Below, one piece after another: positions 61,647-64,000 of a stretch of DNA of 64,000 nucleotides (its first letter is position 1; every line of letters begins with the position of its first letter). Made by a program: the position numbers and the translations under genes. The stretch is from Actinopolymorpha singaporensis (lineage in GTDB: Bacteria; Actinomycetota; Actinomycetes; Propionibacteriales; Actinopolymorphaceae). The notes under the pieces were generated by a model. That model made no database searches and had not been told where the DNA came from. It saw nothing but the letters and a program-made list of their open reading frames with translations. Location: contig NZ_LT629732.1 of NCBI RefSeq assembly GCF_900104745.1, forward strand, positions 2,281,981 through 2,345,980. Direction: 5' to 3'.

Positions 61647-61728
61647 GGCAGGTTGCCCGAGCGGCCAAAGGGAGCGGTCTGTAAAACCGTCGGCTCAGCC
61701 TACACTGGTTCGAATCCAGTACCTGCCA
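61647..61728 (+). tRNA. tRNA-Tyr (GTA anticodon)
   Basis: The acceptor stem GGCAGGT (61647-61653) pairs with ACCTGCC (61721-61727), with discriminator A at 61728. The anticodon GTA is at 61681-61683 in the loop CTGTAAA, and the T arm is ACTGG TTCGAAT CCAGT. The long variable arm (CGGCTCAGCCTAC region) fits bacterial type II tRNA-Tyr. The 3' CCA is not encoded. In S. coelicolor the same tRNA-Tyr is the attB site of the SLP1 element, just after yajQ. Confidence 0.95.
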
Positions 61729-61740
61729 CGCAGCAAGAAC

Positions 61741-61772
61741 GGCCCCTGACCTGCGCAAACAGGTCCGGGGCC
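61741..61772 (+). terminator. Terminator-like hairpin after tRNA-Tyr
   Basis: GGCCCC (61741-61746) pairs with GGGGCC (61767-61772) and, after a 2-base bulge on each side, ACCTG (61749-61753) pairs with CAGGT (61760-61764) around loop CGCAAA. The moderately T-rich CGCTGTTGTTG follows. It should terminate the tRNA transcript. Confidence 0.8.
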
Positions 61773-62173
61773 CGCTGTTGTTGGCGTTCGGTGTCTAGCT
61801 GTGTCCAGCCCGCGCCGACTGTCCACGGCCCGTCCGGCGAATACGTGGCGAAGTTCAGTTCCGGATTGCGCGTCGTGGTTCGGAGCGGTGGCCCGCGCTA
61901 CGACGTGGAGCGAATCTCTCGCCCCTCCGCATCGTCTTGGCGAACCGAGAAGAGGCCAGGCCGATACGTGATCATCGCCTGCGGCATCCACGGCACATGA
62001 GTAGCCTGAGGTCTTGATCATGACGGTTGCTTCCGGGGCGGTGGCATGGACATCGGTTCGACAAGGGGTCGGAACGAACGGCAACGCTCATCCAGACAAG
62101 AGGTTGTGCCGTCGGCAAGGCGTGGTGCAGTCTCGCCGAGCTCGGAGGGGCCCGATCGGGAGGCGCTCGACTG
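61773..62173. other. 400-base intergenic region between tRNA-Tyr and the DUF262 gene
   Basis: No convincing gene is seen; short open frames here look like shadows or tRNA read-through. No exact second copy of the tRNA 3' end, integrase or att core is recognised. GGGAGG at about 62158-62163 is the ribosome site for the next gene. Base composition falls visibly towards the right end. Confidence 0.55.
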
Positions 62174-64000
62174 ATGGAACTCAAAGCCGAGAAGCAGACG
62201 CTGAAGGCGCTCCTGGCGGTAGACGAGCAGCAGTTCAGGATCCCTCCATACCAGCGGCCGTACTCGTGGACCCGTGAACAGATTGACGACCTGTGGACCG
62301 ACCTGATCGAGAATGTGCAGGCAGGTCACTTCATTGGCTCGGTCGTTCTGGCGGCCGAAGATGATGCTCGGCCACTCGTCATCGACGGCCAGCAACGCCT
62401 GACCACCCTGATGCTGATACTGGGCGCTGTTCGCGACGCGTGTCATGCCCGTGGCATGACGAATGACGTCCAGCAGATCGAGAAGCGGTTCATCGCGGAC
62501 GATCTAGCGAATGGCGACGCGCAGTTCAAGTTCAGAACCGGGAACGCCAACTGGCCCGTGTTCCGCGACTTCACACTTCGGTCGGTGGGAGACCCGCTTC
62601 GCAAGGCCGAGTCCAGCGCGTTGGACAAGGACATGCGTGCGCGCAACCGGGCTCTACTCAGCAATCGTGACCGGATCGTCTCCCTCCTCGCCTCACATCT
62701 GGAGCATCTTCCTGAGCCCGGGCAGGAGAAGTGGCTTCGAGACTTCTGGAAGGCCCTGCTTGGTAAAGTCGAGCTTGTAGTCATCGCGGTGCGAGACCTT
62801 GGGGACGCCTTCCTGCTCTTCGAGACCCTCAACGACCGAGGGCTACAACTGTCGGCAGCCGACCTGCTGAAGAGTCACATGCTCGGCGAGATCGCCAAGC
62901 GGTCTGCCGAGGAGGATGTCGACCAGGCCGCTTCATCGTGGGACGGGATGCTCGACGATCTCGGCGCAGGTGTCGACGTCACACGATTCCTTCGGCACTA
63001 CCTCCTTGGCTACGTCCCGAAGGTGAAGAAGGACAGCGTCTTCGACCAGTTCAAGGAACTGGTGAAAGACCGTGGCGCGGAGTCTGTGCTCGCGGACCTT
63101 CGGACCGCTGCCGCCGCGTATGGGGAGTTTGAGGCGCCAGCCAAGGCGGGGCACGAGCAGACGAGCGCGGTACTCAAGGACCTTGCCACCCTTCGGGCAG
63201 TGACCTGCTACATAGCTCTGCTGCCGGCACGTCGGTACCTGGCGGAGAAGGACTTCGTCGAGTTCGCGCGGCTGGCGGAGGTACTCACCTACCGATACAG
63301 CAGCGTGGTTGGTCGAGGGACCAACGAGATCGAACCCGTTTATCACAGGGCGGCCAAGATCCTCCATGACAGCCAAGGGACGCGTTTGGCGGAGGCGCGC
63401 GAGACCCTCATCGCAGCTATGCCAGATGCCGAGCAGTTCCGTGTGGCGTTCCAGCGCCTGGAGATGGGGCGACAATACCTCGTTCGATACACGCTCCAGC
63501 GGATAGAGCAGGCGCTGCATCCGGCGTTGGAGAAGATGGTTGACGTGTCCACCCTCGTACACATCGAGCATGTCATGCCGCAGACGCTCAACAAGGACTG
63601 GTCAGTGAGTCTGGGGTCGTTTGCCGACCAGTACCAGGAGTACGTGAATCGTTGGGGAAACCTGACGCTCCTGTTCGCGGGGCTGAACATACCGGCCAGC
63701 AACAAGGCGTTCGAACAGAAGAAGCGATACTACGGCGACTCTCAGGTGAAGATCACCCAGGAACTGTGCCAGTACGAGACCTGGGGGCCAGAGCAGATCG
63801 ACGCTCGCCAGCGTTGGCTCGCGGAGGTGGCGGAACACGTCTGGCGTGTCTACCCAGTCCCGCACGACCAATTGCCCACCCTGCGGTACGAGCACAAGAC
63901 ATCGCTCGACGACTTTCGAGAGAGGGTCGGCGCGCTGTGGCCGGTGATTGCCCCGTATGCCACCGACACCACGGCTCAGGAGATCCGATCGCTGGCAACT
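62174..64000 (+). CDS. DUF262/DUF1524 protein, GmrSD-like nuclease family (3' end outside window)
   Basis: At least 609 residues with no stop before the window edge. The N-terminal DUF262 (ParB/Srx-like) domain has RIPPYQRPYSW near 22-32, the NTPase-type DGQQRLTTL at 71-79 and FLLFETLNDRGLQLSAADLLKSHML near 213-237. A C-terminal DUF1524 His-Me/HNH nuclease motif VHIEHVMPQTLN is at 462-473 (H463, H466), followed by WGNLTLL near 494. Such single-chain proteins are related to GmrSD type IV restriction enzymes and phage-defence factors. Start ATG 62174 has GGGAGG upstream. Composition is AT-richer with less biased codons than its neighbours, which suggests transfer, next to tRNA-Tyr. Confidence 0.9.
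   Translation, partial: MELKAEKQTLKALLAVDEQQFRIPPYQRPYSWTREQIDDLWTDLIENVQAGHFIGSVVLAAEDDARPLVIDGQQRLTTLMLILGAVRDACHARGMTNDVQQIEKRFIADDLANGDAQFKFRTGNANWPVFRDFTLRSVGDPLRKAESSALDKDMRARNRALLSNRDRIVSLLASHLEHLPEPGQEKWLRDFWKALLGKVELVVIAVRDLGDAFLLFETLNDRGLQLSAADLLKSHMLGEIAKRSAEEDVDQAASSWDGMLDDLGAGVDVTRFLRHYLLGYVPKVKKDSVFDQFKELVKDRGAESVLADLRTAAAAYGEFEAPAKAGHEQTSAVLKDLATLRAVTCYIALLPARRYLAEKDFVEFARLAEVLTYRYSSVVGRGTNEIEPVYHRAAKILHDSQGTRLAEARETLIAAMPDAEQFRVAFQRLEMGRQYLVRYTLQRIEQALHPALEKMVDVSTLVHIEHVMPQTLNKDWSVSLGSFADQYQEYVNRWGNLTLLFAGLNIPASNKAFEQKKRYYGDSQVKITQELCQYETWGPEQIDARQRWLAEVAEHVWRVYPVPHDQLPTLRYEHKTSLDDFRERVGALWPVIAPYATDTTAQEIRSLAT

Follow-up and report, generated by a model that had tools for sequence, protein, structure and literature searches.

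We identified a gene for a GmrSD-type single-chain protein (DUF262 plus DUF1524) of the HEC-06 clade at the tRNA-Tyr edge of what looks like an old island carrying a type 2 BREX (Pgl) system in Actinopolymorpha singaporensis. The protein is probably an NTP-dependent nuclease that senses DNA modification and attacks phages that BREX misses. The window, a stretch of 64,000 nucleotides (G000:C1:2281981-2345980), ends inside this gene, as the original prediction had noted, and the reading frame runs from an ATG at 62174 to a stop 264 bp past the window end (L003:755-2845; Table 1). The genome under study (G000) was compared with other genomes (G001-G007), of which G003 is the congener Actinopolymorpha rutila DSM 18448.

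Table 1. Features at the tRNA-Tyr locus. Positions follow the window numbering, continued past 64,000, unless a genome coordinate is given.
Feature	Position	Strand	Assignment or remark
yajQ-family gene (presumed), 177 aa	61049..61582	-	final backbone gene before the island; directly left of tRNA-Tyr
tRNA-Tyr (GTA)	61647..61729	+	ARAGORN; left island boundary and integration hotspot
75-bp direct repeat, left copy	61719..61793	+	last 11 nt of tRNA-Tyr, GC and a palindromic terminator (GGCCCCTGACCTGCGCAAACAGGTCCGGGGCC)
HEC-06-clade GmrSD-type gene, 696 aa	62174..64000, stop at 64264 (genome 2346244)	+	DUF262 + DUF1524
DUF6642 gene	64682-65254 (L003:3263-3835)	-	between the DUF262 gene and pglW
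PglW	65461-69801		BREX type 2; NCBIfam over cut-off
PglX (BREX_2_MTaseX)	~69798-73355 (L003:8379-11936)		NCBIfam over cut-off
PglY/BrxC	73371-77036		PADLOC 1493 bits
PglZ (PglZ_2)	~77033-79705		NCBIfam over cut-off
BrxD	79702-81030		NCBIfam over cut-off
BrxHI	81027-83138		PADLOC
STK_OB kinase	83161-85404	-	
PP2C	85407-86234	-	
TerY	86231-87127	-	
75-bp direct repeat, right copy	G000:C1:2376623-2376697		84% identity, 33 kb away

Both domains of the 696-aa protein matched well above their Pfam cut-offs (GmrSD_N, PF03235, E 1.5e-37, 130 bits against 33.2; GmrSD_C, PF07510, E 1.7e-25, 90 bits against 23). The two motifs that had been read as intact from the DNA are indeed present, DGQQR at aa 71-75 and the HIEH region as IEH..PQ...GNLTL at aa 464-499. 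In an alignment of nine homologues, D71-R75, E465, H466, P469, Q470 and G495-L499 are invariant, as are Q27 R28, F216-N220 and the His-Me finger residues H466/N496/N505. The HEC-06 assignment is by best PADLOC score rather than by a tree, with models PDLC04154-04157 covering aa 5-559 at 382 bits, followed by Orf5 (276 bits) and SspE (75 bits). Profile and fold comparisons returned DUF262-DUF1524 nucleases only (DndI 9jfl, SspE, and BrxU). Among solved structures, DndI ranked first in both comparisons (profile E 3e-48), followed by SspE and then BrxU, for which the profile match (7p9k) reached only E 2e-5. The AlphaFold model had a mean pLDDT of 62 and served only to support these family matches. 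A C-terminal extension of about 135 aa has no family match, and NCBIfam holds no named family for the protein. It is 91-94% identical among three Actinopolymorpha species; a full-protein search of genome contigs gave a match in A. rutila only. No plasmid homologue reached 60% identity, those with the best coverage standing at about 26-29%, and thus no plasmid source was found for the gene.

The foreign-looking composition proposed in the original prediction holds, although the change is not confined to the far side of the tRNA. The gene has a GC content of 0.62 and a GC3 of 0.76, compared with 0.67-0.76 and mostly 0.85-0.96, respectively, in the left-hand backbone genes, and GC in 500-bp windows falls from ~0.73 to 0.61-0.63 across the boundary. 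The fall already starts (0.65) within the gene left of the tRNA, which we take, following its first assignment, to belong to the yajQ family; its product is 96-99% identical at the amino acid level in three congeners.

The expectation that further defence genes would follow was borne out, and the defence genes at this site are all of known kinds. Six consecutive open reading frames, mostly overlapping and all open, make up a complete type 2 BREX operon by their family matches (PglW-PglX-PglY/BrxC-PglZ-BrxD-BrxHI), in which PglY reached 1074 of 1700 bits and so lies below the NCBIfam equivalog cut-off. Directly right of BrxHI stands a TerY/PP2C/STK_OB triad (L004:3141-7107) of 56-61% GC, which yielded no homologue in the stretches compared from G001, G003 and G004. 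Beyond it lie genes for an LTD protein and NadE-like and CinA-like products, with no clear defence role. The DUF262 gene and pglW do not form one operon, since the gap of ~1.2 kb between them holds a gene on the opposite strand. The DUF6642 product of this intervening gene is 99% identical in A. rutila and 84% in G004, the latter despite a four-fold-site identity of just 56%, and is thus constrained at the protein level.

The same tRNA-Tyr is a hotspot of integration in the congeners, in keeping with the original prediction. Tandem partial copies of ~52 bp, which extend from tRNA position 32-33 in the anticodon loop to the 3' end, occur at the site in G002 (two), G004 (one), and G005 (at least three). 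An integrase match (PF00589) lies in one G002 segment and in every one of the three from G005; the G004 segment has a match below cut-off. The G005 stretch (C73:15165-94854) is a three-segment tandem array behind tRNA-Tyr, each segment with an integrase match and a ~52-bp tRNA copy. These copies and integrases represent accretion of elements at a tRNA attachment site, a process known for actinobacterial integrative elements such as SLP1 in the tRNA-Tyr of S. coelicolor (PMC1934918, PMC3009677, PMC3218068). Tyrosine integrases would take the anticodon-to-3' half of tRNA-Tyr as their attachment site, and the island in G000 would have docked there.

A duplicated tRNA 3' end to the right of the gene had been suggested as a check, and this was recovered in part: the 75-bp repeat is present, but its right-hand copy retains just 11 nt of the tRNA, compared with the full ~52 bp in relatives, and no tRNA homology was detected upstream of it past these 11 nt (shuffle p 0.10). 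The integrase looked for in the same direction did not materialise, a PF00589 match being absent from the interval 2343.7-2376.7 kb of G000, and no replication or transfer (tra) domains were seen among the proteins scanned from the island region, leaving present-day mobility unsupported. With a partial repeat 33 kb away and no tyrosine integrase in between, the block reads as an old, degenerate island that lacks current mobility functions and has a putative far boundary; this copy may have lost its own integrase or never possessed one. The sequence that follows the tRNA in G006 served to look for an empty ancestral site, but the congeners gave neither an orthologous flank nor an empty site, and a search to 2441 kb for a conserved right-hand flank set no backbone boundary. 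Stretches collinear with A. rutila start at 2380254, where their distance from the tRNA differs and they are unusually similar. Across G000:C1:2380254-2395905 (compared with L050-L052 and L073), DNA identity is 97-98% and four-fold-site identity 90-99%, above the backbone value of ~86%, and the blocks stand in a different order in A. rutila; DNA on this side of the island has probably been exchanged recently. A tandem direct repeat within this region (G000:C1:2384032-2384677; two 352-bp matches, 99% identity, offset 295 bp) is common to A. rutila.

The DUF262 gene does not hold a conserved position in all relatives, being present in three of the six Actinopolymorpha genomes examined and absent from G002 and G005-G007. 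BREX adjoins tRNA-Tyr in G000, G001, and G003, and the DUF262-BREX block occupies the same position in A. rutila. In G004, the block lies 55 kb from the intact tRNA and directly after a 52-bp tRNA copy, which occupies the place of the tRNA in G000 and G003. The simplest order is therefore that DUF262-BREX was present first and that a 55-kb element entered the tRNA in G004 later. Compared with A. rutila, identity at four-fold sites stands at ~86% for the backbone, 79% for the DUF262 gene, and 73-81% for the BREX genes except PglX. These comparisons indicate a block that is long resident rather than freshly acquired, and probably largely inherited. AT-richer, weakly codon-biased genes may lose third-position identity faster, such that a small deficit alone is no proof of separate transfer. 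G001 carries the same BREX at about 90% DNA identity and lacks the HEC-06 gene; in its stead a 743-aa GmrSD_N protein with a DIHHIFP motif is encoded on the opposite strand (L048:6294-8525), adjoining pglW, and matches PDC-M55C and HEC-05 (the BrxU clade) in PADLOC.

In the mechanism that we favour, an N-terminal ParB/Srx-like DUF262 domain would bind DNA and, in its DGQQR pocket, NTP, sense DNA modification, and hydrolyse the nucleotide, and the resulting movement would allow the C-terminal His-Me (HNH) DUF1524 domain to cut or nick DNA. These activities have been described for the two domains elsewhere, namely NTP hydrolysis in the DGQQR pocket and modification sensing for DUF262 and cutting or nicking for DUF1524 (PMC10952713). 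BREX would rely on N6-adenine marking by PglX to keep out phages whose DNA is unmarked, and those with modified DNA that evades BREX would be attacked by the DUF262 enzyme. Variation in PglX bears on whether the two are coupled. Among four Actinopolymorpha species (L003, L048-L057), PglX residues 550-750 are 39-46% identical in every pair and residues 750-900 60-75%, the remainder being 92-95%; the specificity (TRD) region thus appears to have been exchanged or diversified in each of the four systems. If the DUF262 protein read a sequence-specific PglX mark, it should vary together with PglX, and it has stayed nearly constant while that region diverged, which favours a protein that senses modified phage DNA independently and complements BREX. 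The substrate could be something else, because DndI, the nearest relative with a solved structure, is a nickase that host phosphorothioates hold in check and not a type IV enzyme seeking out modified phage DNA.

The DUF262 gene might instead be a passenger, a solo type IV enzyme that shares an integration hotspot with BREX by chance and has no functional complementarity to it, which we consider rather unlikely. Its separate transcription unit, its replacement by another family in G001, and the accretion of unrelated elements at tRNA-Tyr all fit such chance cohabitation, but the G001 replacement likewise encodes a GmrSD_N protein and lies beside pglW. Moreover, seven other actinobacterial genomes have homologues of the G001 protein (40-57% identity) no more than 30 kb from PglW, and a GmrSD_N gene lies within that distance in 10 of 41 other actinobacterial genomes with PglW, compared with 0.47 expected by uniform placement (~20-fold; P ~ 1e-10), an enrichment that general defence clustering alone may explain. 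The link between GmrSD enzymes and BREX is already published: BrxU adjoins BREX and acts in a complementary fashion (PMC8565348), and HNH/GmrSD enzymes form the second most prominent class of auxiliary nucleases in a survey (PMC12839542). No tRNAs were found beside other BREX-2/DUF262 loci in the stretches examined, and adjacency to tRNA-Tyr is therefore not general.

Alternatively, the nuclease could be active by default and be released from host DNA that carries the N6-methyladenine of PglX, serving as a BREX effector instead of a type IV enzyme in its own right. Such a reading is unlikely, although DndI, the closest relative both by sequence profile and by fold, works in this way with phosphorothioate (PMC11662687), and the gene adjoins a methylating system in three species. 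The DndI patch residues P23/Y25/Q26 align with P24/Y26/Q27 of the 696-aa protein, yet P-x-[YF]-Q is common to all aligned DUF262 proteins and does not discriminate. Recognition of a sequence-specific PglX mark is hard to reconcile with the N-terminal domain, most of whose 50-residue blocks show 84-100% identity among three systems that share just 39-46% in their PglX specificity regions; G001, moreover, has the same BREX with no HEC-06 gene. A dndC search gave no TIGR03183 match in G000, G001, G003 or G004, where control genomes likewise gave none over the cut-off, and the exact DndI mode is accordingly unlikely.

A bolder proposal, which we regard as quite improbable, is that type 2 BREX keeps a dedicated position for an exchangeable effector, filled by the DUF262 gene, in which enzymes of unrelated GmrSD clades (HEC-06 and HEC-05/BrxU-like) are swapped beside pglW and read the BREX state of DNA (generic N6-methyladenine or a stalled BREX complex) as DndI reads phosphorothioate; were it true, BREX would gain a nuclease arm. 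Finally, it is barely credible that the locus is plain backbone DNA that is AT-richer by chance, as the four-fold-site identities slightly under the backbone value might suggest, and this reading is contradicted by the presence/absence pattern and the tandem tRNA copies, by the other cargo and integrases that relatives carry at the tRNA flanking the block, and by the loss of synteny right of BrxHI.

The locus as a defence-island edge, as first proposed, is well supported, by the defence block to the right, the presence/absence pattern, and the tRNA 3' copies with integrases in congeners. More generally, the favoured reading of independent, complementary sensing can be approached through a natural comparative set, in which four species share a single type 2 BREX core at a single tRNA site. 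The specificity region of PglX differs in each; a HEC-06 enzyme is present in three, and the fourth has an enzyme on the BrxU side. The set allows a direct test of whether GmrSD enzymes act independently of a neighbouring BREX or are coupled to it. Useful additions in themselves are this comparison of four species, the swapping of GmrSD clades next to pglW and the variability of the PglX specificity regions.

DndI (9JFL) and SspE share domain order and motifs with the 696-aa protein, but both work with host phosphorothioation, DndI being a nickase that the host's phosphorothioates keep away from its own DNA (PMC11662687), and dndC was not found in the Actinopolymorpha genomes searched. The HEC-06 GmrSD-like proteins (PDLC04154-04157) have the same DUF262 plus DUF1524 single chain and are described as acting independently (PMC11411939); the described systems are embedded in Hma, whereas the Actinopolymorpha gene stands beside type 2 BREX and encodes the additional C-terminal extension. 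BrxU (HEC-05), from the type 1 BREX island of pEFER, is likewise a GmrSD-type enzyme beside BREX with a proposed complementary division of labour; it belongs to another DUF262 clade and is encoded inside its operon, unlike the gene described here, and it is the G001 substitute, not the HEC-06 gene, that sits on its side. The analogy with S. coelicolor drawn in the original prediction is apt, Streptomyces being a distant relative: SLP1/Gi11 occupies the same tRNA-Tyr (GTA), with ScoMcrA, a type IV, modification-dependent endonuclease, as cargo (PMC1934918, PMC3009677), and Pgl there resides on an island, GI-4, as in Actinopolymorpha. ScoMcrA and Pgl occupy separate islands in S. coelicolor, whereas DUF262 and Pgl stand together in Actinopolymorpha with no integrase found, and SLP1 remains able to excise, with a 112-bp att repeat left behind (PMC1934918, PMC3009677). 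Taken together, these parallels show that actinobacteria share tRNA-Tyr as a docking site at which modification-dependent nucleases recur, SLP1/ScoMcrA in Streptomyces and, putatively, the DUF262 enzyme here.
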